Shown here: one piece after another, positions 5,761 to 61,847 of the stretch
How positions within the stretch are numbered: the stretch's first letter is position 1
How the letters are laid out: each line of letters opens with the position of its first letter
Assembly (NCBI GenBank): GCA_030448005.1
Contig: JAUJNT010000002.1
Coordinates: 310,200 to 374,199, forward strand
Length of the DNA: 64,000 nucleotides
Origin: Thermoleophilaceae bacterium
GTDB lineage: Bacteria; Actinomycetota; Thermoleophilia; Solirubrobacterales; Thermoleophilaceae
Direction: 5' to 3'
Translations under genes and position numbers: made by a program
Notes under the pieces: generated by a model
What the model saw: only the letters and a program-made list of their open reading frames with translations
Told to the model about the DNA's origin: nothing
Databases searched by the model: none

Positions 5761-6153
5761 ATGAAGCGCCTGGGACTTCCGCTCCTCCTGTGCCTCACCC
5801 TCGTTGGCGCCACCGCAGCCGCCCAGGCGGCCACCCTCGGCCCGCGCTACCTGGGCGGGGAGAGTGTGCGCAGCAAGCCTTCGTCGATTGGCGTGGGCGC
5901 AAAGGGAGGATGGGAGCGACTTCGCTGGAGCAACTGGGGAAAGGCCGAGGCCACCGCTCGCGGGATATATGACATCGCCGGCTTCGCGGGCGAGCCGGGC
6001 ACCGGCTACAGAAGCCGGATCTTCGTGAGGGTCCTGGGGCGCAAGCGCTGCCCGGGCGGAGCGGTGATCTACACGCGCGTCCGCCACCTGCGGGCGCCGC
6101 TCGCCGGGCGCCGCTTCTTCCGCGAGCGCTTCAGCACCTGCCCGAGCCCGTGA
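5761..6153 (+). CDS. small secreted protein of unknown function
   Basis: 130 aa. The ATG at 5761 gives a clean signal peptide: MKRLG, a hydrophobic core to about residue 20 and an Ala-x-Ala cleavage site near residues 21-24 (AAAQAA). The mature part is basic, with two cysteines (one near the middle, one near the C-terminus) that could form a disulfide outside the cell. I do not recognise the family. Divergent from the DUF192 gene, with a short intergenic region, and followed by the tRNA gene. Confidence 0.65.
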   Translation: MKRLGLPLLLCLTLVGATAAAQAATLGPRYLGGESVRSKPSSIGVGAKGGWERLRWSNWGKAEATARGIYDIAGFAGEPGTGYRSRIFVRVLGRKRCPGGAVIYTRVRHLRAPLAGRRFFRERFSTCPSP

Positions 6154-6190
6154 TCGCAGCGATCGGCCGGGGCTAGACTCCGACGTTCCC

Positions 6191-6263
6191 GCCGACGTAG
6201 CTCAGCTGGTAGAGCACTTCACTCGTAATGAAGGGGTCCCCGGTTCGAATCCGGGCGTCGGCT
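6191..6263 (+). tRNA. tRNA-Thr (anticodon CGT)
   Basis: Acceptor arm GCCGACG (6191-6197) pairs perfectly with CGTCGGC (6256-6262). The anticodon stem CTTCA/TGAAG encloses the 7-base loop CTCGTAA, so the anticodon is CGT and reads ACG. A T-arm with GGTTCGAATCC is present. CCA is not encoded. The integrase-bearing mobile region begins directly after it, so its 3' end is a likely attachment site. Confidence 0.95.
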
Positions 6264-6325
6264 TCGGAGAAAGGCCTGCAAAGAGATAGTTTTTCGGCCT
6301 CTCGCCTTGGGCGACTGTTCCGATC

Positions 6326-6346
6326 CGCCAACATTTTCGCCAACAT
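6326..6346. repeat. paired 9-bp direct repeat next to the tRNA
   Basis: CGCCAACAT occurs at 6326-6334 and again at 6338-6346, 12 bp apart, about 60 bp past the tRNA 3' end. Short direct repeats beside an attachment site often serve as integrase arm-binding sites; that role is an inference. Confidence 0.4.
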
Positions 6347-6432
6347 CGCCTTCGTGGGGTCGGGCCCGCGGTTGGTCGACGGAGCGGATTCAACGGCGAC
6401 GTGAGCGGCCTGATCGTCACTGAACCCGGCTG

Positions 6433-7344
6433 CTAGTCCTCTCCATCGGGCGCGCTCTCGACGGGGACCCGCCGCACGCGCTTGTCCAGTGTGTCGAAGT
6501 GGTTGGTGTAGAGGTTGCGCTCGGTCACGAGTCGCCGGTTCGTCACCGGGTCTGTGCGGATCTTCTTCTTCGTGATGAGCCCACTGGCCAGGTGCTTGGC
6601 CAGTCCCGTCTCGATCGTGCTCGGCGCGAAGGGCAGGACGGTGTGGCCCTTCGGGTCCATCTGGTCGTCCTTGAACCAACTGAGCTGGCGCCACCACGTT
6701 CCGGTCCCAGGCTTGGAGCGTCCGCGGCCGGCGCCGCGCGGGTGGTAATACGCGGCGATGCTCGCGGCGAAGTAGCCGGCGAGCTCGGGCGCGCCCCACG
6801 TTGCGAAGTGGCCGGAGGCGATGACACTGCCCCGGATGGTGAGGTAAAGCTCGTCCTTACCCGCGGGATCATCGAACGACCGGCCGCTGCCGTCGTCACG
6901 CAAGACCACGATCTTCGACCGGCGGCCCGGATCGGACGTAACGTCGACGAGCTTGAGCTCCGCCAGCTTGTCCAGCTGGTCTGCGACCCACTTGCGCTTG
7001 AGATGGCGCTCCTCGGCGGCGGTCCGGTCGCTGCGTTCACGGCGAAGGCGAGGCGGCGGTGCGGCGAGGTCGTACAGGTCCTCGGATGCCCAGTCGCGCA
7101 GGACGAACCCCGGCTTCCGCCTGCCGGATCTATTCGGCGGCAGGGCGATCGCTCGGAGGACAAGGTCGAGCTTCACCGCGCCGGGCGCCTTTGCGGCAAT
7201 GAGAGCGCCGTAGGATCGGGTGATAAGAGTTCGCCGGATTCGGAAAAGGCCCTTGCCGGCTCCAGGGCCGTAAGCGATGCCCGGCCCGTCATTCGACGAC
7301 CGCGCCGACGCAGGGGCTCTTGGCGAAGTGGTCCGTACCGACAT
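6433..7344 (-). CDS. hypothetical protein, possible winged-helix replication/regulatory protein
   Basis: 303 aa from the ATG at 7344. Rich in Arg and Lys, without signal peptide or membrane segments. A segment with WVADQLDKLAELKLV followed by basic strands resembles a winged-helix domain, and a Trp/Tyr-rich segment follows. It sits between the tRNA and the Pycsar genes, the place where mobile elements often carry a replication initiator or regulator. I do not recognise the family, so the role is only positional inference. Upstream of the start, the motif ATACC occurs three times on the minus strand (7346-7373) and might be an operator. A second ORF-like stretch overlapping the tRNA is not coding. 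Confidence 0.6.
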   Translation of the reverse strand: MSVRTTSPRAPASARSSNDGPGIAYGPGAGKGLFRIRRTLITRSYGALIAAKAPGAVKLDLVLRAIALPPNRSGRRKPGFVLRDWASEDLYDLAAPPPRLRRERSDRTAAEERHLKRKWVADQLDKLAELKLVDVTSDPGRRSKIVVLRDDGSGRSFDDPAGKDELYLTIRGSVIASGHFATWGAPELAGYFAASIAAYYHPRGAGRGRSKPGTGTWWRQLSWFKDDQMDPKGHTVLPFAPSTIETGLAKHLASGLITKKKIRTDPVTNRRLVTERNLYTNHFDTLDKRVRRVPVESAPDGED

Positions 7345-7569
7345 ACGGGTATGCTATCACTGGTATAAAGGTATGGTTCCCACCGGGCCGCGGGTACGTA
7401 GTGCAGAGACACTTGAGAAGAGAAACGGAGGGTGAGTACTACTCCGCCCAGTACCCGCGTTCTAGTCACAGTCGGAGTCGCGCTGGCCCGCGCGAGCGTC
7501 TACGGTCCTGTCAGGTCATGACCAGCGCCGACGCCGAGGGCCGAGCTTCCGTTGTAGGTGAAGAGGCCC

Positions 7570-7584
7570 GAGGTGTCACCTCGA
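7570..7584. promoter_or_regulatory. perfect 15-nt palindrome between the winged-helix and Pycsar genes
   Basis: CGAGGTGTCACCTCG has 7-bp arms around a single T. It lies downstream of the Pycsar effector gene and upstream of the wHTH-like gene on the minus strand. It could be an operator or a short hairpin; no T-run follows. Confidence 0.35.
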
Positions 7585-7777
7585 CCCCACCTGGTTTGTT
7601 TCAAGGAGGTCGAGGCGGGGGCCTAGGCTAGAAGGAGGCGGACCCGGCGCGCGCGGCCGGGTCTCGTCTGCCCATTGAGGTCGATGGCGACCAGTTGCAC
7701 CCCTGCCCGCCCGTCCGACGTCCGTGAGAGGGCGGACATCCGCGACAGGTGGACCGAGGGCGCTGCCTGCGCGGTCG

Positions 7778-8284
7778 CTACGACACGAGCACGGCGATGG
7801 CGCACGCGACCGCGCCGATGCCGTAAAGCACCAGACCTGCTCGGACGAGCCGGTACTTGGTCATAACGATGCCGCTGATGGCCTGCAGCTGCTCGAGTGG
7901 ACGCTCCCCGTCGCTGCCGGCTTGGCATCCGATCGCCTCGCGTAGGGCGTCGCGGCTGCGGTAGCCGACGACGTGCGAGAAGTACGTGACGCGACCCGAC
8001 GCGTGATCGCTGTCGAGCCGCGGCCAGATGGCCGCCGACACGGCGACGAGCGCAACGGTTGCCGCGACGGCCCCGAACCACCAGACGACCTCGGCTCCAG
8101 CCGCCAGATCGGCCGGCTGCCAGTCGCCAGCAATGATGCCCGCGAGCACGGCCCCAAACCCGATGCCGAAGATCGCGAACAGCATCGCCGCCTTGCCGTC
8201 GGCGCGGTTCAGCTCCTCGCGGGTCTCCGCGAGGAGCTGCCCGGTGAGAGCGACCCCCGGTTTGTCGGAGACGTTGACCGCCAT
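7778..8284 (-). CDS. pycTM: Pycsar effector, three-helix membrane protein (PycTM-like)
   Basis: 168 aa from ATG 8284; a GTG one codon earlier (8287) is an alternative. Membrane segments lie at about residues 33-52, 66-87 and 147-167. The RADGKA sequence just before the first helix (27-32) and the KYR motif before the last one (143-145) are hallmarks of the DUF5706/Pycsar effector family. Known members bind cCMP or cUMP and damage the inner membrane so that infected cells die. The start overlaps the cyclase stop by one base (TGATG), so the two are translationally coupled. Partner pairing and topology both support the call; ligand choice is not readable here. Confidence 0.82.
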   Translation of the reverse strand: MAVNVSDKPGVALTGQLLAETREELNRADGKAAMLFAIFGIGFGAVLAGIIAGDWQPADLAAGAEVVWWFGAVAATVALVAVSAAIWPRLDSDHASGRVTYFSHVVGYRSRDALREAIGCQAGSDGERPLEQLQAISGIVMTKYRLVRAGLVLYGIGAVACAIAVLVS

Positions 8285-9174
8285 CACGCCGCCGCCTGGC
8301 CCGACACGTCGTCCCGCTTGCGATCGCCGTCAAGAATGGCGGCACAGAACTCGTCGCCGTGAACCTTGCACCAGCCAACCGGCAGCAGCTTGCACCGCGA
8401 GTGCTTGCCGAGCTTCTCGACCTCGACGTCGACCCAGAGCGGAACGGGGACGCCGTTCGGGCAGCCGCAGGAGTGCGTGACGTACTCGTTGCCGACGAAC
8501 TTGTCGTAAACGTTCGCCGTGGCAATGAGCTCATGCCGGTCCGCCCTCCCGGCGCACTTCACCGCATAGTTGACGGGCTTGCCCGCCCAGACCGGCTCGT
8601 TGGTGCCGCGGACGCCGACCTTCTTGGCGACGAGCACGCCGGCCGACAGGCCCACCTTGAACCCGGTGTCCGGGAAGTTGTCGGCGAACAACTCGTCAAT
8701 CAGCGGCGCCAAGCTACGGACGCTGAACGACTTGAGCGTGATGCCCGTGCAGAGCGCGCGCTCGAAGGCCCGCTCGCCGTGGAACAAGCCGAAGATGCCA
8801 TCGCCCTGGATGTCCATGAACTGGGGGTCGAACTTGGCCATGAGACGCACCGCGGACCCCGTCGCCGCCTCGTAGAGGCGCGCGCTCGTCTGGGCGTACT
8901 TGTTGAAGCTCAGTGCGGTCGAGTCCTTGAGATCCGCCGAAACGGCCACGACGTTCTTGATCCGCAGCCACTTTCGCTTGTCGACCCAGAGGTCGCCGGG
9001 CTTCGGGAACGTGTCGACGTCCACGATCTCCACGGGCGCCTGCAGGTCTTTGCGCGCGCGATCGTGCTGGTCGCCAAGCAGAGCGTTTACCTTGATACTG
9101 CTGCTGGCCGCCTTGCGGAGCGCCAGCGCCTCGGTGAGGGCGAAGACATGGTCCTCGCCGAAATGATTGGCCAT
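8284..9174 (-). CDS. pycC: Pycsar-type class III nucleotide cyclase (PycC-like)
   Basis: 296 aa. ATG 9174 is chosen because GGAGG sits 7 bases upstream; the frame stays open to 9306 without family sequence. The class III cyclase core has a metal-binding Asp81 in VSADLKDST, the second Asp125 in IQGDGIF, the GLSAGV segment (175-180) and AGKPVN with Asn202 and Lys206. An extra C-terminal part contains Cys236, Cys238, Cys261, Cys269, Cys277 and nearby His, possibly a zinc site. In Pycsar systems this enzyme makes cCMP or cUMP after phage infection and activates the membrane effector encoded directly downstream. No other enzymatic partner is nearby. A general adenylate cyclase is the alternative, but the PycTM neighbour makes that unlikely. 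Confidence 0.82.
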   Translation of the reverse strand: MANHFGEDHVFALTEALALRKAASSSIKVNALLGDQHDRARKDLQAPVEIVDVDTFPKPGDLWVDKRKWLRIKNVVAVSADLKDSTALSFNKYAQTSARLYEAATGSAVRLMAKFDPQFMDIQGDGIFGLFHGERAFERALCTGITLKSFSVRSLAPLIDELFADNFPDTGFKVGLSAGVLVAKKVGVRGTNEPVWAGKPVNYAVKCAGRADRHELIATANVYDKFVGNEYVTHSCGCPNGVPVPLWVDVEVEKLGKHSRCKLLPVGWCKVHGDEFCAAILDGDRKRDDVSGQAAA

Positions 9175-9641
9175 TGAAGGGCCTCCGATCATGGTGTTGT
9201 TATGCCTATTGCGCCGGCACCGGGCAGGAGACCAAGCCTGCACGCCGACGGCAGCAAGGAATGATCCGTTCGGGCCCGGACGGAACGGAGGCGTCAATGG
9301 GTGCACGGGCCGGGCGGGTGGTCACGTCCGCCCGGCCCGTGCGGGGTTCTTTGGCACAACAACGGCTTGCACTCTATGTCCGCCACCGGCGGAACGCTCC
9401 ACACGTCGTGAGCTGGGTTGGCTGGGGTCGATCCCCGCGGAGATGCTCGGCGGGTGGTCATATGCGGTCCCACGGGCGCGCGGCGCGCACGCCACGGTCA
9501 CCGCCGTCCAGGGCGGCTTGACGTACTGCACCGACTACCCCTACGCCGGGACGAAATGAAGCGCGAGCCCGAGGGAGCAGCAGTGATCCCGACGAGCGGC
9601 CTACGACGAAAGATCGTCTTAGGCCCTGCGACACTGTCGGC
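9175..9641. other. non-coding region upstream of the Pycsar genes
   Basis: About 470 bp with no supported gene. It separates the minus-strand Pycsar operon from a plus-strand ORF and should hold both promoters. The dominant structure is the 15-bp-arm hairpin at 9303-9342. Confidence 0.5.
9303..9342. terminator. strong inverted repeat, possible terminator or regulatory hairpin
   Basis: GCACGGGCCGGGCGG (9303-9317) pairs perfectly with CCGCCCGGCCCGTGC (9328-9342), leaving a 10-base loop. On the plus strand it is followed by a weak T stretch (TTCTTT). It lies 130 bp upstream of the cyclase start, so it could insulate the Pycsar operon or act in its control. Confidence 0.55.
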
Positions 9642-10058
9642 ATGACGTCCGAGGAGATCGCCGGCCAGATTCATTCGTGGATGTCGGACACGGTGCCCTT
9701 GCCGCCCGAGTACAGGGTGGAGATCGCCGTTCACCACGACGCGGCACTCGAGACGCAATACGCAAGGCCGTTTCCAGCGCAGTTCGGCAAGACCGACCGC
9801 CGGGTGATCGCCCGGCGCTTCCGAGTCACGTTCGGCGTCTCGGTGCCGGCCAGCGCAAACGTCGACGTTGAGGAGCTGGCCGACGCGGTCGCGGGGTGGT
9901 ACGACCGGCAGGCGAGTCAAGACCGTACGCTGGGCAACCGCGTTCGCGATGTCGCACTGGCCGTCGGCGAGTTCGAGCCGGTCGGGAACAGCGCTGGCGC
10001 CACGAGGACGATGCGCGCCACTGCCTACGAGGTCGAGACGCGCAACCCCAGCGGCTGA
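9642..10058 (+). CDS. hypothetical protein, possibly phage tail-terminator-like
   Basis: 138 aa, soluble, ATG at 9642. The pattern of strand-rich sequence, the long amphipathic helix (VEELADAVAGWYDRQ) and an Arg/Thr-rich strand before the C-terminus vaguely resembles small tail-completion proteins of phages. I cannot name a family. It lies between the Pycsar operon and the integrase and is transcribed convergently with the integrase. Codon use and length suggest it is a real gene. Confidence 0.5.
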   Translation: MTSEEIAGQIHSWMSDTVPLPPEYRVEIAVHHDAALETQYARPFPAQFGKTDRRVIARRFRVTFGVSVPASANVDVEELADAVAGWYDRQASQDRTLGNRVRDVALAVGEFEPVGNSAGATRTMRATAYEVETRNPSG

Positions 10059-10189
10059 CGGCCCGCGTTCAGGAGCATCCCTTGCCGCCGTTTCCCGGAC
10101 GGGCCCCACTCAGCCGCAAGACTCGGGAGGACGTCGCAGCAGGTGCCGTATGGTTCCCGCCGTGGACGGCTGCTCAGGAAGACCTGACC

Positions 10190-11293
10190 TTAGACCAGAC
10201 GCGCTGCGCGTATCACGTCCTCCGGCCGCACCCGCTCACCGCGTGCAAACTCACTGAACAGGTGCGCGTACGTGTTCAGCGTCAGGGTCGGCGAGTGCCC
10301 GAGCTCCGCGGCGAGCTCCACCGGCGAGTAGCCGGCCTGGATCATCAGGCTCGCGTACGAGTGCCGCAGGTCGTACGGCCTCGTTCGATCGAGTCCTGAG
10401 CGTTCGACGGCCGGGTCGAATCGGCGGCGCCGCCAGTTGCGGTAGTCCGTCCCGTTCCACGTGCCGCCGTCCGCTCGTTGGGCGATCGGCGCTTCGTCGT
10501 CCGGCTTGCCTGCCGCGGACCGCCAGGCGGCGAGGTCCTCCGCGAGCGGGGCGAGCATCGGGACCGTACGGATGACGCCGGTCTTCGTGCCCTTGCCCCC
10601 GCCCGTCCCGTCCCTGCTCAGCTCGACCAGCAGCGTCCGCGTCCCGACGTGCTCCCAACACAGCGCCGTCGCCTCCGCCGGCCTCAGGCCCGCGTAGGCC
10701 ATCAGGCTGACGAGCGTCGCGCTCGCCATGTCATCGGCGTCGAGCACGGCCCGCCGGATTCGCTCGACGGCGACCGGCGCGAGCGGCCGGATCGCCCGCC
10801 GCCGCTTGGGCTGGACCACGCGCACCGGTTGGACGGGGTTGCGCTCGATCCGTCCGCGGAGCACGGCGTGCCGCATGACCCCGCTGAGCACCATCAGGAT
10901 CCGGTGGGTCATCGCGCCGCCTACAGCACTCGCCCGGAGCTGGCCCTGTAGCGCGATCACCCGCGCCGGGTCGATGTCCCTGATCGGCGTGTCGCCCAGC
11001 CGCGGCAGCAGGTGAACGTCGAGCACGTGGGCATAGCTCTGCACGGTGTTCGGCGCGAGGTTCGGCTCGACGTGGTCGGTCCACCACGCGTCGGCGGCTT
11101 CCCGCAGCGGCTCGCGGCCGGCGTCCGCCGTCTCGATCTGATCCTGCCACTTGAGCTCGCGTAGCTCACGGTCGCGTTGCTCGGCCTGTCGGCGTGTGGG
11201 GTAGGTCTCGGCGCGCTGGCGGCCGTCCAAGTCACGCCATGTGACCTGCCAGACGGTATGACCGCTGGCGCGCTTTCGGCGGCGCACGCTCAT
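10190..11293 (-). CDS. tyrosine recombinase / integrase
   Basis: 367 aa from ATG 11293; the upstream extension of the frame is not family-like. It has an N-terminal arm-binding region (1-60), a SAM-like core-binding domain (about 65-160) and a catalytic domain. Catalytic residues: Arg204 (AGLRPAE), Arg310 in YDLRH with Tyr307 in the usual first His position, His333 (LGH) and Tyr342 (NTYAH). Expected to integrate and excise the element at an attachment site, most simply the 3' end of the tRNA-Thr at 6191-6263. It lies 4 kb from the tRNA with cargo in between. No separate small excisionase lies next to it; the HTH protein at 17233-17721 might serve. Confidence 0.9.
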   Translation of the reverse strand: MSVRRRKRASGHTVWQVTWRDLDGRQRAETYPTRRQAEQRDRELRELKWQDQIETADAGREPLREAADAWWTDHVEPNLAPNTVQSYAHVLDVHLLPRLGDTPIRDIDPARVIALQGQLRASAVGGAMTHRILMVLSGVMRHAVLRGRIERNPVQPVRVVQPKRRRAIRPLAPVAVERIRRAVLDADDMASATLVSLMAYAGLRPAEATALCWEHVGTRTLLVELSRDGTGGGKGTKTGVIRTVPMLAPLAEDLAAWRSAAGKPDDEAPIAQRADGGTWNGTDYRNWRRRRFDPAVERSGLDRTRPYDLRHSYASLMIQAGYSPVELAAELGHSPTLTLNTYAHLFSEFARGERVRPEDVIRAARLV

Positions 11294-11541
11294 CTGTCCA
11301 GTGATGGGTCGGGGCTCGTGCGAGTGGTCTGACGAAGCATCGTCTCCCAGTGAAAGAGGAGTGCTGAGCCGGATTCGCCCCCGGCCTGAGATCCGCGGTC
11401 GGCCGGGCGGGAGACGGACGAGGCCCCAGCCCAGCACACCCGCGTCGGCGGGCGCAAGGCACGCGCTTCGCGCCGGCATTCGCCGGTCCCTGACGGGACG
11501 CGCCTTGACGCCCGCGCCGCGGGCGCGCTCCCAGGCGGGCC

Positions 11542-12426: not shown

Positions 12427-12918
12427 TCACCGCCTCCTGCGGCGCCGCTCCTCGAGCCAGCGGGCGGTTCGCGCGAGCTCGTCGCTGAACATCAGCTCGA
12501 CGCGCGGGTCAGCGTGCGTGCCGGTGTCTATCTGGTCGCGCCAGACGCTGAGCGCGGCGAGCCGCTCGGCCGCGGCACGGTCGCCCGCCTCCGGCATCAC
12601 CGCGTCGCGAAGGTCGAGCGGGTATCGCTCCGAGAGCTGTGCCACCGCGACCCCACAGGCGCTTGCGGGAAGCCACGCGACGGCCCGCGGCTCGGAGCCG
12701 TTCGACGTGCTCCGTGCCGCCTGCGGGGCCGGGCCGCGGCGGCGCTTGGGTGGAGCATCGAGGCGCGCGCCGGCATCCGCGAGCCCGGCGCGCACGAGCC
12801 GCGCCGCGGTGGTCGCCTCGGGCTCGCTGCGGCGCACGGCCAGCTCCCGCAGCGCGTCGCGCTCGCCGCGGCTGAGGCTGACCGCGACGCGCTCGAGCTT
12901 GACCGCCGCCCGGGTCAC
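12427..12918 (-). CDS. mobilization accessory protein, ribbon-helix-helix-like
   Basis: 163 aa starting at GTG 12918, which overlaps the relaxase stop (GTGA). The first 50 residues (KLERVAVSLSRGERDALREL... AARLVRAGL) fit a ribbon-helix-helix DNA-binding fold as found in TraM/TrwA/MobC-like accessory proteins that help a relaxase at oriT. The rest is helical and charged. Last gene of the mobilization operon. The fold is an inference from pattern, not from a firm motif. Confidence 0.6.
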   Translation of the reverse strand: MTRAAVKLERVAVSLSRGERDALRELAVRRSEPEATTAARLVRAGLADAGARLDAPPKRRRGPAPQAARSTSNGSEPRAVAWLPASACGVAVAQLSERYPLDLRDAVMPEAGDRAAAERLAALSVWRDQIDTGTHADPRVELMFSDELARTARWLEERRRRRR

Positions 12919-15287
12919 AGGGCGATCTCCACCGCCGCCTTCGCAAGGGCTCGCTCGGGCTCGGGCTCGGGCGAGCGCTCTCGGTCGTCGTTGCGGCCGT
13001 CGCTTGGCGCGAGGTCGTAGGCGAGGGACGGTATCTGCGCTCCCTCGATTCGCATCCGCGCCGCGAGCTGGTCGACGCGCTCGGCGTCGTCGGCGCCCTC
13101 GAGCGCGTCGCGCGCGACGTGCCACTCGACGCCTGCGCGGGCACGCGAGGCCTCCACGTAGGCGCTCTCGCGCGAGGTCTCCCAGCCGCCGGTCACGACG
13201 ACCGCTCGCTCCACCGTCGCCCCCTGCTGGCGGAAGACGTGGCCGGCGTAGCCAAGACGCAGCGCTTCTAGATCGTCTGGGCCTACGCACAGCTCGCGGC
13301 CGCTGCCGTCGAGCCGCACCCGCAGCGAGCGGTCGTGCTCGTCCACGGCGAGCGCCTCGCCGCGCACGCCGTTCTCGACGCGCGGACCGTCCGTCGTCGC
13401 CATCGAGCGCGTCCAGGCGACCCGATCGCCTGCGCGGACGGCGTGGCCGCTGTCGAGCAGCTCCACCGATTCGTCGCCGAGCTCGCCGGCCTCAAGTCGC
13501 AGCTGCTGGACGCGCAGGTTGAGCGCGTCGACCTCGGTGTTGCTCGCGTCGGTCATCAGCGCGACCGCATCCTTGTCGTGATCGGCGGCGAGGCCGACGT
13601 AGCGGCGCGCCGCACGGTCGACCGCGTCCGTGCGCGTGTCGGAGAAGCGCAGCACGCCGCGCTGGCGGTAGTGGGCCATCGCGAGGGCCGGGTCGCCTGA
13701 GCGCAGCGCCTCCCACGCCTCGCGCTCGGCCGGGTCGGGCGTGCGACGAACCTCGCTCAGCTCGGCGGCCGGCACGAACTGGTGGAGGCGTTCGAACATC
13801 CCGCCCGCACCGACCGACGGGAGCTGGCGCGGGTCGCCGATCAGCACCAGCGAGCCACCGCGCTGCTCGACGGCGTCGACCAGGCGCGCGAGCCGCTCGC
13901 TGTCGCCCATCCCCGCTTCGTCGACATATACCGTGGTCGCGGGGGAGACGTTGGCGCGGTCGTGCCTGAGCGCCGTCACGAGGCCGTCGAGCGTGCGTAC
14001 CCGGCCGGCAAACGCCGGGGAGTCCTCGCCGAGCCGCTGGGCGGTGCGGCCCGCGACCGCGACGCCGATCACCTCGCGGCCGGCAGCCAGCTCCGCGCGC
14101 GCCGCGGCGTCGATCACGACGCCCTTGCCGGTGCCGGCCGGGCCGATCAGGACCGTGGCGCGTCCCGGTCCGGTGAGGGTCTCGACCGCCGCGCGCTGTT
14201 CGCCGCTCAGCTGACTCGCGATCCGCTCCTCAACCGCGCAAACACCGCGCTCCCTCGCTGCGGCTGGGATCGAGCGTGCGGAGCTTCGGCCGAGCTCCTC
14301 GACCCGCTGTTCAAGGCCCTGCTCGAGCGCTCGCATGCGACCGGTGGTTAGCCGGCCCTCGTCGAGCTCGAGCACGGCACCGTCCGCGCGCAACTGGCCG
14401 AGGCGCTCCAGCGCGTCATCGCCTTCAAGGCCTGCGCCGGCCGCGTGCTCGAGCGCGACGCAGCGCAGCTCGCGCTCGTCGAAGACCGCCCCCTTGGAGG
14501 TCGCCGCCTCAAGCACGCGCTCCGACCAGCCCTCAACCGCCGGTGCGGCGGCACGTGCCCTACTTGGCTCCGGTGGGTGCTCCATTCCCTGCTCGGCCGC
14601 AAGTGCCCGCCACGCACGATCGAGCTCGGCGCGCGTGCGCGGGAGCTTTGCCTCCCGGCTCGAGACGGAAAGCGAGCGCAGCTCACCGCGCTCGGGCTCA
14701 CGGCCGTGCTCGGCACGGAACCGCTGCGCCGCGCGGTGGACCTCCTCGGTGCGCTTGCTGAACGCACGGGCGGCGTCATCGTCGACACCGGCGATCGTGA
14801 AGTAGCGCTCCTCCTTGCCGGACGGCTCTACCTTGAAGCCGAGGTTGCGCAGGCCCTCGGCGAGCCGGGCGCGGTAGTAGGCGCCGACCTCCCTTGCGGC
14901 GCCGAACGCCGGGCGCGAGCGCACCGCCCCCACCGTTCCTGTCGAGCGCTCGACGCTCGTGATCACCACATGGCTGTGCAGCTGGGGGTCAGGCACCGCG
15001 CCAGCCACCCCGCGCGCTGTCGTGTGGAGGAACTCCGCGGCGTGCAGCTCCTGCGCCGGCGCTGGCTCCCCACCCGGGCCGTGGGTGAGCGGCACGCTAT
15101 CGCGCAGGTAGCCGACCGCCCCGGCGACCGCCTGCGAGTGAACCCGTTCGATCTCCGCCCGCCGCCGGGCATCTCCGAGGGCCCACACGACGCTCACCGG
15201 CTTCGGCGGCGAGAAGGTGACGTCGAGACCGCCCGCCCTGCTGCCGTCCGCGCCGGCCGGACGCAGCCAGACAGGATCCCTCCGCAT
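12915..15287 (-). CDS. MobF (TrwC/TraI-type) relaxase-helicase, main reading frame
   Basis: 790 aa from the in-frame start at 15287. The relaxase domain has the metal-binding His triad (His88, and His104/His106 in PQLHSHVVI). The helicase part has a Walker A motif GPAGTGKG at 382-389 and Walker B VYVDEAGM at 453-460, followed by GDPRQLPSVGAGG. It nicks and unwinds the element's DNA at oriT for conjugative transfer. The true N-terminus, which carries the catalytic tyrosine, is encoded upstream at 15284-15524 in other frames because of two one-base shifts, so as sequenced this product lacks its active-site Tyr. It overlaps the RHH-like gene by 4 bases. Confidence 0.88.
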   Translation of the reverse strand: MRRDPVWLRPAGADGSRAGGLDVTFSPPKPVSVVWALGDARRRAEIERVHSQAVAGAVGYLRDSVPLTHGPGGEPAPAQELHAAEFLHTTARGVAGAVPDPQLHSHVVITSVERSTGTVGAVRSRPAFGAAREVGAYYRARLAEGLRNLGFKVEPSGKEERYFTIAGVDDDAARAFSKRTEEVHRAAQRFRAEHGREPERGELRSLSVSSREAKLPRTRAELDRAWRALAAEQGMEHPPEPSRARAAAPAVEGWSERVLEAATSKGAVFDERELRCVALEHAAGAGLEGDDALERLGQLRADGAVLELDEGRLTTGRMRALEQGLEQRVEELGRSSARSIPAAARERGVCAVEERIASQLSGEQRAAVETLTGPGRATVLIGPAGTGKGVVIDAAARAELAAGREVIGVAVAGRTAQRLGEDSPAFAGRVRTLDGLVTALRHDRANVSPATTVYVDEAGMGDSERLARLVDAVEQRGGSLVLIGDPRQLPSVGAGGMFERLHQFVPAAELSEVRRTPDPAEREAWEALRSGDPALAMAHYRQRGVLRFSDTRTDAVDRAARRYVGLAADHDKDAVALMTDASNTEVDALNLRVQQLRLEAGELGDESVELLDSGHAVRAGDRVAWTRSMATTDGPRVENGVRGEALAVDEHDRSLRVRLDGSGRELCVGPDDLEALRLGYAGHVFRQQGATVERAVVVTGGWETSRESAYVEASRARAGVEWHVARDALEGADDAERVDQLAARMRIEGAQIPSLAYDLAPSDGRNDDRERSPEPEPERALAKAAVEIAL

Positions 15288-15524
15288 CGCTCGCGGGCGA
15301 GCGACCCTCCATCAGCGCCCGCAGGTCATCCGGCTTCACCTCGCCCGCTTCGACCCCGACGCGGCTGAGTGCCTCCGGGGAGCTCAGCCATCGCCCCGGC
15401 GACTCCGCGGGGGAGCCGTCGGTGCCCAGGTAGTAGTCCCCTGCTCCGGTACGGCGGTGCGCGACTCCAGGTATTCGGCGTATCCCTGCGCCGAGGACGC
15501 CGCGATGCTCGCTGCGGTCATCAT
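15284..15524 (-). pseudogene. frameshifted N-terminus of the MobF relaxase
   Basis: Starting at ATG 15524 (overlapping the coupling-protein stop) one frame reads about 29 residues typical of MobF N-termini (SAQGYAEYLESR). A second frame then continues with GDYYLGTDG, the catalytic-Tyr region, through the RALMEGRSPAS segment, and the main frame takes over near 15285. The first shift lies in a run of four C/G at about 15438-15441, the second between about 15275 and 15300. Either natural inactivation or homopolymer sequencing error. Confidence 0.75.
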
Positions 15525-17233
15525 CTCGACTCCTCCCAGAACGCGGGCAGGTAGGTGACGGCCGGCAGATCACGTCCGTGGACGAGCACCGCCCGCCCCT
15601 CGCGCAGCTGCATCAGCGGCTGCGCGGAGACCTTCGGCGCCTGGCGCTCCTGGCGCGAGGAGCCGCCCGAGCCCAGCGGCGAGGAGCTCCACGAGGAAGC
15701 CGTCACCGTCTCCTCGTCGAGCAGATCGGTCAGGTAGCGGCGGGTCGACTCGTCCTGGATCGGGCCGAGGAACAGCTTGCACAGCGCGTTGCCGAGCACC
15801 GCGTCGGCCTCGCGGCCGTAGCGATGCTCGAGCTGGGAGAGGGACTGGTACACGAGACACCAACGCACACCCCAGCCCGCCGACACCGCCAGGTAGGTCG
15901 GCAGCTTTCCCAGCGGCGCCAGGTAGGCGGCCTCGTCGGCGAGAATCCGCAGCGTCGGCCCCCGGTGCTGGGGCTCCGCGGCCGCCCGCTCCTCCCATAC
16001 CCGCAGCACCGAGCCGAGCAGGCCGCCGACGATCGGAGCGAGCATGTCCTGCTCGCTCTCCGGGCAGACCACGTAGAGCGTGCCACCCTCGAGCAGCTCC
16101 TCCGCCTGGAACCCGGGGGTGTCGAACGCGTCGACCGACGGGAACCGGTAGGCGTCGACGAGCTGGGCTGCGGACATCAGCAGCAACGAGCGCGGGCGCT
16201 CGTCGAGGCCCTGGATCCCCGCGATCGCATCCGCCGCCCGCTGCGCGCCGTGGCGGGCCAGGATTGAGCGCGGCTCATCGAGACCATCGATGCCCGAGCG
16301 CAGCCACTCGTGAACGAGCGCCATGTTCCGCCCGCCGAGCGCTGCGGCATGGAGGAGGGGAGGGAGCGCCACCCCGACCGCCTCGCGGTTGTAAAAGCGC
16401 GCGCCGCCCGAGTCCTGCGATCCTTGCGAGATCGTCGGATCGGCGTCGAACAGCCACCGGCCCATCCGCAGCGCGTACTCCCAGCCCTCACAGCCGGCAA
16501 GCGGCGACCACCCACAGCGGTGCGGGAGCGCGCAGGTGAACGGCGCGCAGACCCACACCGGCCCCCGCTGTTCGCGTTCCTTCACCGTGTCAAGCACGAC
16601 GTCGGTCTTGTTCAACAGCACGATTGCCGGCCCAGGGTGCTCAAGCAGCGCCGGCACGACGATGCGCGTCGTCTTTCCCGAGCGCGTCGGAGCGACGGCC
16701 ATCAGATGGGTCTCGGGGCCCGAGCGCAGCGGCCTGCCGCGCAGCTCGCCCAGCGACCAGCTGTCCGCCACATCACCCCGCACGGTGGCTAGCCGGCCAG
16801 TTCGCAGGTGACGCAGATCCCGTGGGCGTGCCCAGGACCGCGGCCTCACCCGGCCCCGCGGATGCCACCGCGGCAGACCGACCGTTCGAGCGCCGCGCCA
16901 GCGATCGACCCGGACAAGCGCCACCGCGATCCCCGACACCGCCGCTGCGAGGATCCCGACGTTCAACGCCGTCCAAACGCCCGGTGCCGGCATCACATCC
17001 CGATACGCCGCGAACGCCGCCAGCGTACGGGGATCACCGTCGGCGCCCGCGAACAGCCAGCGCAGCGCGCCGCCGACCGCGGAACCCCAGCCGATCACGG
17101 TCGGCTCGCCATGCACCAGCGACCATATGAAGGTCGGCACCGCGACAGGCACATACAGAAGGCCCGCGAGCATCGCCGCGAGCACCACCACGAACAGGGC
17201 AGACTCGCCAGAGCCGCCGCCGGATCGATTCAT
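15521..17233 (-). CDS. type IV coupling protein (VirD4/TraG-like ATPase)
   Basis: About 570 aa. ATG 17233 has GGAGG 7 bases upstream; a GTG precedes it by one codon. Two membrane helices in the first 110 residues, then the ATPase with Walker A APTRSGKTT (182-190, counted from 17236) and a Walker B-like LRILADEAAYLAPLG. Located at the inner membrane, it would hand the relaxase-DNA complex to a conjugation channel. No VirB/Tra channel genes are visible, so the element probably borrows one. Overlaps both neighbours by a few bases, as expected of one operon. Confidence 0.88.
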   Translation of the reverse strand: MNRSGGGSGESALFVVVLAAMLAGLLYVPVAVPTFIWSLVHGEPTVIGWGSAVGGALRWLFAGADGDPRTLAAFAAYRDVMPAPGVWTALNVGILAAAVSGIAVALVRVDRWRGARTVGLPRWHPRGRVRPRSWARPRDLRHLRTGRLATVRGDVADSWSLGELRGRPLRSGPETHLMAVAPTRSGKTTRIVVPALLEHPGPAIVLLNKTDVVLDTVKEREQRGPVWVCAPFTCALPHRCGWSPLAGCEGWEYALRMGRWLFDADPTISQGSQDSGGARFYNREAVGVALPPLLHAAALGGRNMALVHEWLRSGIDGLDEPRSILARHGAQRAADAIAGIQGLDERPRSLLLMSAAQLVDAYRFPSVDAFDTPGFQAEELLEGGTLYVVCPESEQDMLAPIVGGLLGSVLRVWEERAAAEPQHRGPTLRILADEAAYLAPLGKLPTYLAVSAGWGVRWCLVYQSLSQLEHRYGREADAVLGNALCKLFLGPIQDESTRRYLTDLLDEETVTASSWSSSPLGSGGSSRQERQAPKVSAQPLMQLREGRAVLVHGRDLPAVTYLPAFWEESR

Positions 17234-17721
17234 CACTTCACCTCCTGGGGGCCATCGCCCCCGGTCGTTGACGAGGGGCCGCTCGCGGCCTGCGAACGGG
17301 TCCGCGCACGAGCGCGCGTGCGGAAGTCCATGGCCTCAGCGGATGGGCGCCGCACCCCTGATTGCCCTTGCGCGGTCGGCCGAGCAGGCGCCGGTGGAGG
17401 GTCGGACGAAGCCGCGAGCCAGGCCTCGACGGACTCCGGGCGGATCCGCCAATGCGCGCCAAGGCGCTCACCGACCAGCCGCCCCGACCGCAGCGCGCGG
17501 TAGACGGTGCGCTCACAGGCCCCGACAAGGACAGCGACCTCGCTCACCCGCAGCCAAGCGACGCCCTGATGGGGTGTGGCCTCCGCCGAGAGCGCCTCGA
17601 TCCGCTCGTGGACCAGCTCCTCGACATGACCCAGAAGCGCGTCGGCGAGCAGGCCGAGCAGATCGGACTCGGTGCGAGCGCGCGAAGGTGACGACACCTC
17701 TTCAGGCCCGCGCACCCGCAA
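17233..17721 (-). CDS. excisionase-family helix-turn-helix DNA-binding protein
   Basis: Up to 162 aa; start is uncertain (TTG 17721, or GTGs slightly downstream). Residues about 55-105 form a MerR/excisionase-type HTH: WLRVSEVAVLVGACERTVYRALRSGRL followed by AHWRI, then ESVEAWL. First gene of the mobilization operon; it may control the operon or act as the recombination directionality factor. The C-terminal third is low-complexity and basic. Confidence 0.75.
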   Translation of the reverse strand: MRVRGPEEVSSPSRARTESDLLGLLADALLGHVEELVHERIEALSAEATPHQGVAWLRVSEVAVLVGACERTVYRALRSGRLVGERLGAHWRIRPESVEAWLAASSDPPPAPARPTAQGQSGVRRPSAEAMDFRTRARARTRSQAASGPSSTTGGDGPQEVK

Positions 17722-60842: not shown

Positions 60843-61847
60843 GTGGTCCCCACGCCACCGCCTGCTTTGCGCAAAGCGGAGAAGCCACCGCTCCTGGCAG
60901 CACACGGGAGAGAAGCGGCGATAGGTCGGTGTCGGCAGACCGTCCGCTCTGCGTCAGGCGAACACCCGGAGGAAGCCCAGGCAGGCGACAATCCAGCCGT
61001 GCGCGCCGACGCTAAGGCCTCCCAAGCGCTCGTGGCGATCGCCAAGGCCATTGAAGCGAGATTTAGCAAGGGTGACTGGCTCATGCTGGGCCTGATCACG
61101 GATTCCCAGGATGTGATCACCGGGCACCGCCGGCTCCTGCGTAGCCTCGAATGGGGCGACGAGGATTACTCCGGCAGTGTGCAGGTGCTGCCAAGCATCC
61201 TTGGCGCGGCGCGCGAACGCGTAGTGGCGGGCCGGGCGGCCGAGTGCTTGCCGAATCTTCGAGTGGTCGAGGAGCACATCGGGCTGGGGGCATGGCTGCG
61301 CGACAACGACTCCGCGCTTCACAAGGCGTTGTACGCCGGCCAGGGCACCGCAGTTCTGGACGAGCTCGATGAGGCGGCCGAGCGATTCGGCATCCCAGAC
61401 ATCGACATGCACGCAGCGCGCATCCGCCGCGGCCTGCATGACGACCCCGCTCAGGCGATCGGATCCGCAAAAGAGCTACTCGAGACCACCCTCAAGGCCG
61501 TCCTCGGGCTTCATGGCTCGGGTCCCGAGACCAGGCTCGACGTCCCCAGGCTCGTCAAGCTGGCCAACGTCAAGCTCGGTCTCGATGCCTCCGGCGTCGC
61601 AAACGACGAGCCAGGTGCCGCCCACCGGCGCAAGGTGCTTGGATCGCTCGCACAGATCGTCAATGGGACGGCTGAACTCCGAAATGCCGGATTTGGGACC
61701 GGCCACGGGCTGAGTCGCGGACCCGTGCTTGATGTGGCCACGGCCAGACTTGTGGTGTCCGCGGCAGTTGCCGTCTCGACGTTCTACGCGGAGGCATACG
61801 CGGCCCTCGAACCGCCATCGCCTATTGACCCGGACCTTCCTTTCTAG
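60843..61847 (+). CDS. abortive infection (Abi_C-domain) protein
   Basis: 334 aa from GTG 60843; the family-like part begins near GTG 60999 (VRADAKASQALVAIAKAIEARF). N-terminal half: DWLMLGLITDSQDVITGHRRLLRSLEWGDEDY. C-terminal Abi_C domain: AIGSAKELLETTLKAVL, KVLGSLAQIVNGTAELRNAGFGTGHG and ARLVVSAAVAVSTFYAEAY. These proteins are linked to phage-induced growth arrest and may bind or cut RNA; mechanism is not established. Stands alone, so it is probably a single-gene defence or its regulator. Confidence 0.75.
   Translation: MVPTPPPALRKAEKPPLLAAHGREAAIGRCRQTVRSASGEHPEEAQAGDNPAVRADAKASQALVAIAKAIEARFSKGDWLMLGLITDSQDVITGHRRLLRSLEWGDEDYSGSVQVLPSILGAARERVVAGRAAECLPNLRVVEEHIGLGAWLRDNDSALHKALYAGQGTAVLDELDEAAERFGIPDIDMHAARIRRGLHDDPAQAIGSAKELLETTLKAVLGLHGSGPETRLDVPRLVKLANVKLGLDASGVANDEPGAAHRRKVLGSLAQIVNGTAELRNAGFGTGHGLSRGPVLDVATARLVVSAAVAVSTFYAEAYAALEPPSPIDPDLPF

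Follow-up and report, generated by a model that had tools for sequence, protein, structure and literature searches.

A deep-branching cyclase-effector pair of the Pycsar type on a tRNA-Thr-adjacent island of a Thermoleophilaceae bacterium

Two adjacent genes of a Thermoleophilaceae bacterium encode a PycC-type nucleotide cyclase and a PycTM-type membrane effector, and the pair is, with high probability, a Pycsar abortive-infection system. The genes lie in a 64,000-nucleotide stretch of contig JAUJNT010000002.1 (the window, in what follows), on an island that adjoins a tRNA-Thr gene and carries an integrase and transfer genes. The directly established part of this assignment comprises the family, the fold, the catalytic and zinc-binding residues, and the conserved pairing of the two genes. 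As far as can be judged from sequence, the pair carries every feature of Pycsar but one, the base-recognition pocket of the cyclase. We see in it a deep-branching, divergent new member of a rare type of phage defence.

Layout of the gene pair and of its island

The initial annotation had placed the pair at 7778-9174; both genes do exist there, and both are on the minus strand, which that annotation had omitted (Table 1). The one-base overlap that it described is also real, base 8284 being common to the stop codon of the cyclase and to the ATG of the effector. An in-frame GTG at 8287 is an alternative start of the effector gene. Both frames look intact, and, because they overlap, the two genes are probably co-transcribed and translationally coupled. 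The 15-bp inverted repeat that precedes the cyclase gene may be either a terminator or an operator. A terminator scan found one site, against 1.6 on average in shuffled sequences, and a promoter scan, of a kind that may not fit this organism, found no sigma-70-like promoter at 7300-10300.

Table 1. Features of the gene pair and of the surrounding island, in window coordinates
Feature	Coordinates	Strand	Remarks
tRNA-Thr (CGT), presumed integration site	6191..6263	+	tRNA search
PycTM effector, 168 aa, three long helices	7778..8284	-	start ATG 8284
Overlap, cyclase stop TGA / effector start ATG	8284..8284	-	one base, read from sequence
PycC-type pyrimidine nucleotide cyclase, 296 aa	8284..9174	-	class III; clade D type; C-terminal zinc ribbon; ATG at 9174, stop at 8286-8284 (read from sequence)
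GGAGG, likely cyclase ribosome-binding site	9182..9186	-	7-nt spacer before ATG 9174
Perfect inverted repeat, 15 bp	9303..9342		~130 bp upstream of cyclase start
Tyrosine integrase	10190..11479	-	PF00589, 58.8 bits
TrwC/MobF relaxase with helicase domain	12915..15287	-	PF08751 from profile position 72 of 286
Type IV coupling protein	15521..17236	-	PF02534, 93.4 bits

To the right of the tRNA-Thr gene there follow, in this order, a gene for a 303-aa protein, the pair, a gene for a 138-aa protein, the integrase, a sigma-70-region-4 gene, the TrwC relaxase, the coupling protein and a helix-turn-helix gene. The two genes that flank the pair (6433-7344, 303 aa, and 9642-10058, 138 aa) match no Pfam family. 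The pair had been described as cargo of a tRNA-linked mobilizable element, and this description stands in part: the tRNA-Thr gene, integrase, coupling protein and relaxase are present, but the relaxase is apparently split, and the search for attachment sites yielded neither a direct repeat nor a right-hand site in direct orientation. The right end of the element was not located. The relaxase frame begins within the TrwC domain; its 798 aa are about 80 to 190 aa short of the 879-988 aa in the nine closest relatives that are nearly full-length and free of inner stops, and the gene (12915-15573) appears to be split, whether in reality or by an assembly error. An overlapping frame of 158 aa in another reading frame of the minus strand (15097-15573) looks like the missing start of the relaxase. 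Relatives of the relaxase (1e-30) occur in 49 of 201 near genomes, whereas the cyclase occurs only in the window's own.

In the same-genus genome G002, similarity runs 20 nt past the end of the tRNA-Thr gene, and there is a further 30-nt match. In two other related genomes (G005 and G016), the genes after this tRNA are the set that, in the window's genome, lies inverted at ~75-82 kb from the window start; the flanks were compared by tblastx without sum statistics, which, when used, produced noise. Inverted pieces of the tRNA-Thr tail are found ~112 and 126 kb away (G000:C1:428951-428995 and 442531-442575), and ARAGORN does not recognise them as full tRNA genes. With the tail pieces in inverted orientation and the conserved genes inverted with regard to the relatives, the arrangement would fit repeated, stacked integration at tRNA-Thr combined with an inversion. 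Farther along the window, a plus-strand gene at 60843-61847 has AbiJ N-terminal and abortive-infection C-terminal domains, and is a second possible anti-phage gene of the region.

Families and folds of the cyclase and the effector

The PycC-PycTM arrangement proposed from the bare sequence is borne out by profile searches of the adjacent genes. The best PADLOC match of the cyclase is the PycC model PDLC02369 (E=7.5e-75), followed by nine others for PycC with E-values of 1e-4 or better and a tenth at 0.039; no Pfam family matches it. The nearest sequences in PDB are 8jsz, a uridylate cyclase (2.3e-32), 7r65 (2.3e-12) and 6yii (0.0019). An AlphaFold2 model of the cyclase, built from the window sequence and 22 relatives (mean pLDDT 90), retrieves 8jsz at rank 1 (TM 0.75/0.85, E 2.4e-22, 28% identical in the structural alignment) and 7r65, or BcPycC, at rank 2 (E 7.1e-17), with ordinary adenylyl cyclases at 2.6e-11 or weaker. 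The fold alone is no proof of class, since the other two solved PycC structures (8jsf and 6yii) come, in the same search, only among the ordinary adenylyl cyclases or after them. Both metal-binding aspartates expected of a class III cyclase are in place (D81 and D125), and by PADLOC, PDB and tree alike the protein falls with PycC proteins rather than with the housekeeping adenylate cyclases. Residues C236, C238, C269 and H272 align with the zinc ligands C221, C223, C260 and H263 of AnPycC, the cyclase of 8jsz.

Relatives for comparison were collected by the cyclase alone. A tblastn search matched 22 plasmid records, 13 of them covering 80% or more of the query; these 13 best records fell into five groups of equal identity and score, of which one member each was taken, and the nine distant records were left out. 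The plasmid hosts are Mycobacterium marinum, Curtobacterium, Ornithinimicrobium, Arthrobacter and Paenarthrobacter. An alignment-based scan of species genomes gave 34 loci, from which L046 (the same record as L013) and L049 (a weak, partial match at 29%) were dropped, and the remaining 32 together with the five plasmid loci make up a set of 37. Their cyclases are 37-44% identical to that of the window (27 of the 37 aligned), and the latter exceeds the five plasmid relatives by 20-26 aa at the N-terminus. PycTM is found in every one of the 37 relatives, i.e., in 38 of 38 loci with the window; the profiles behind these PycTM and cyclase calls were built and iterated on the same loci, and PADLOC served as an independent check on four of the relatives' effectors.

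Relatives are thus known from plasmids and from scattered actinobacterial genomes, and cyclases of the window type are rare. At 1e-10, one of 396 genomes of the phylum matched, which was the window's own, and a clade D profile found none in 36 and none in 40 genomes in two class-wide searches. Among 201 near relatives, only the window's own cyclase was found. Three weak partial matches also turned up there (27-32% identity, in long frames), and we judged them to be ordinary cyclases. Phage records contained no match to the cyclase; single-sequence scans of genome contigs and viral contigs gave no relative, whereas the alignment-based scans did. A 59-kb IMG/VR contig classed as viral (L079) encodes, at 5815-7287, an AnPycC-like clade D cyclase followed by PycTM, possibly a phage- or prophage-borne Pycsar pair. 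The excerpted text of PMC11719660 reports two Pycsar loci of PycTM and PycC in Paenarthrobacter lasiusi.

In each of the 38 clade D loci both metal aspartates are kept and all four zinc positions are taken by Cys or His, with the exact C, C, C, H set in 28, including the window. Since only one of the three UTP-pocket residues is kept (see below), the assignment to clade D is based on the zinc ribbon, the profile and the closest structure. PADLOC models PDLC02366-02370 probably correspond to clades A to E in this order, to judge from their number, their lengths and the place of BcPycC. In the cyclase tree, made by a quick method, the branch that sets group D apart has a support of only 77, and AnPycC is represented by a fragment on a long branch. 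The window cyclase forms a long single branch outside the other 37, with support of 99 for the 37 and 85 for the 38.

The effector had been likened to DUF5706/PycTM proteins, and it matches Pfam family PF18967 (PycTM), which we take to be the former DUF5706, at 45 bits, above the curated cut-off of 27.2; in the whole genome, which is 96% complete, this is the only match of the family at E up to 0.001. Three PADLOC models of PycTM also match, from 8.1e-14 (PDLC02363) to 8.5e-6, as do, weakly, two CBASS 2TM models (3.4e-4 and 1.3e-3), and two other Pfam matches are both under their cut-offs. The RADGKA and KYR motifs noticed earlier are residues 27-32 and 143-145. The three helices are likewise seen in the AlphaFold2 model (mean pLDDT 86), where long helices span residues 9-51, 62-86 and 127-167, in addition to three short ones. 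Fold searches with this model are silent on how the effector works, since nothing was matched at E <= 0.001; the best row in BFVD, S5VYM5, has a probability of 0.96 but an E of 0.51. Invariant or near-invariant residues in 26 aligned effectors include K31, P88, Q132 and K143, and our guess would be that these bind the ligand or serve in gating. In the effector tree, the window protein groups with those of L012, L034, L039, L043 and L044 (98/93). The cyclase of L039, unlike its effector, sits elsewhere in the cyclase tree, which hints at exchange of effectors between systems.

The base-recognition pocket and the probable mode of action

According to the excerpted text of PMC11224242, AnPycC is a clade D enzyme that makes cUMP and requires both its zinc ribbon and three residues of the UTP pocket, F60, K104 and F109, which were tested as triple mutants and are called highly conserved in clade D; clades A-D are reported there to make cUMP. 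At the three pocket positions the window cyclase has S79, Q123 and F128, so that one of the three is kept. Among the 37 relatives, position 79 is occupied by Val in 31, Phe in three, Met in two and Ile in one, and position 128 by Phe in 35 and Ile in two. Position 123 is Gln in all of them, and in 38 of 38 loci with the window, a count that is partly biased, as IQGDG was part of one of the two scan patterns behind the 32 genome loci; Gln also stands there in the five plasmid loci, which tblastn retrieved without use of that pattern. Two of the three "highly conserved" residues thus fail in the actinobacterial loci collected here, and product specificity in these loci is open to a simple test.

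Because S79 and Q123 replace F60 and K104, the choice between cUMP and cCMP cannot simply be copied from AnPycC. By analogy with the characterised enzymes, the product of the window cyclase is likely, though not certain, to be cUMP, and, with two of the three pocket residues different from those of AnPycC, this is the least certain part of the Pycsar reading. It is possible, if rather unlikely, that the messenger has changed, i.e., that the Val/Ser-Gln pocket takes CTP, or both pyrimidines, and yields cCMP or a mixture. In EaPycC, which makes cCMP, this synthesis was abolished when three residues, Q144 among them, were mutated together (PMC11224242, in the excerpted part), and Q144, which lies before D146, stands at the position of AnPycC K104 when counted from the Asp. 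The invariance of Gln123, the absence of both F60 and K104, and the retention of Phe and Lys in the AnPycC-like cyclase of the viral contig L079 would all agree with such a change. Against it, F100 and R142 of EaPycC are without match in the window cyclase, which has S79 and D121 in their place, the reported product of clades A-D is cUMP, and the Gln count carries the bias of the scan pattern.

For the Pycsar reading as such, a course of events can be proposed from AnPycsar and other characterised systems, to which we owe the assumptions of activation on infection, cyclic pyrimidine synthesis, effector binding and membrane damage. The cyclase homodimer would be inactive until phage infection and would then turn a pyrimidine nucleotide into its cyclic form, UTP into cUMP being the most likely case; the metals would be held by D81 and D125, and the active form stabilised by the zinc ribbon. 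The product would bind to the cytosolic ends of the three-helix effector, which would oligomerise and breach the membrane, and the cell would be killed or arrested before phage release. AnPycC and AnPycTM are reported to inhibit the growth of E. coli on expression and to give resistance to T2, and these effects are lost on mutation of zinc ligands or of the pocket (PMC11224242).

We consider it improbable that the pair serves ordinary cyclic-nucleotide signalling, as an adenylate-type cyclase beside an unrelated membrane protein, or that it is silent cargo, inactive and on its way to being lost. The island may indeed be decaying, since its relaxase appears split, but both frames of the pair are intact and keep every catalytic and zinc residue, all 37 relatives have PycTM next to the cyclase, and the Guanylate_cyc (Pfam) cyclase of this genome is located elsewhere. 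An inverse logic, in which a constitutive nucleotide keeps the effector off and its removal by the phage frees the effector, as in Panoptes, is very hard to credit: the two-gene plan of synthase and membrane effector is also that of OptS/OptE (PMC12657218) and the trigger of Pycsar cyclases is not established, but OptS contains an mCpol domain and OptE belongs to the S-2TM-beta proteins (same source, excerpted text), families other than those of the window's two proteins, and in AnPycsar the mutations that abolish cUMP synthesis relieve growth inhibition, the opposite of Panoptes (PMC11224242). Neither mCpol nor S-2TM-beta appears among the Pfam and PADLOC matches of the two proteins, in libraries that may not contain such models.

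Relatives with several cyclases, and comparison with known systems

At least 15 of the 37 relatives encode an additional cyclase, or two, no more than 2.5 kb from the clade D gene, and a single PycTM was found in each such locus; the number is a minimum, because several loci end near the module at contig ends. The extra cyclase belongs to clade C in nine loci (L011, L012, L014, L016, L019, L020, L033, L039, L045) and to clade B in six (L015, L022, L024, L036, L038, L040). Locus L039 (330-3820, from a Nocardioidaceae MAG) has three cyclases, of clades C, D and C, around a single PycTM, and L019 and L045 are loci of Dactylosporangium and Phytohabitans. Among the loci without an extra cyclase, only L021 has two PycTM. 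Both metal aspartates are kept in all 17 extra cyclases, though that of L020 is a fragment of 158 aa, and the independent PADLOC check agrees for five of the 17, in L011, L012, L014 and L015.

When loci of the same layout are compared by tblastx at 1e-8 (L011/L033, L019/L045, L019/L020), similarity is confined to the module that the two cyclases form with the effector; another four comparisons set a multi-cyclase against a single-cyclase locus. In one of these four, L012 and L034 are 86% identical over cyclase and effector, and the clade C gene is present in only one of them. The extra cyclase is therefore retained and travels with the pair in some lines, and in others it is gained or lost as a unit. 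On the tree, the second-cyclase state must have changed at least nine times, by the same quick method and with AnPycC as a long fragment.

The window represents the one-cyclase form, in which no clade B or C cyclase accompanies the pair: the clade B, clade C and clade D profiles match no frame other than the window cyclase in the surrounding 154 kb (E up to 0.01), and PDLC02367 matches nothing else in the whole genome, at its 96% completeness. This leads us to a more far-reaching proposal, plausible but held tentatively and short of probable, in which the pair would stand, with its one cyclase, as the outgroup of an actinobacterial Pycsar lineage that has a Val/Ser-Gln-Phe pocket of its own and in which a distant clade B or C cyclase has repeatedly joined the same single effector to make a two-sensor one-effector, heterodimeric or two-messenger Pycsar. 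A literature search, whose coverage did not extend to the original Pycsar paper (Tal et al. 2021), found no description of Pycsar with two or more cyclases per effector; the "two PycC" in the excerpted text of PMC11224242 are two crystal structures and not a two-cyclase locus. Why one effector should be served by two or three cyclases is a testable question, for which the minimal pair of the window is a natural one-cyclase control.

Of the characterised systems, AnPycsar of Anabaena (AnPycC, 8jsz, with AnPycTM) is like the window in combining a cyclase with PycTM, in its metal aspartates, its C, C, C, H zinc ribbon and its fold; the two cyclases are nevertheless only 28% identical, and Ser and Gln replace F60 and K104. 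BcPycC of Burkholderia (7r65), a clade B maker of cUMP and the second-closest structure, has the same catalytic core as the window cyclase; the excerpted text of PMC11224242 gives it no zinc ribbon and a base pocket of Y50, D94 and R97. Panoptes OptSE, also two genes for a nucleotide synthase and a membrane effector, is built from other protein families and follows the opposite logic. The actinobacterial clade D loci, on the M. marinum plasmid pRAW and on plasmids of Curtobacterium and Arthrobacter among others, share with the window both PycTM and Gln at position 123; they differ in that 15 of the 37 have added clade B or C cyclases, whereas the window has a single cyclase, which branches outside them all.
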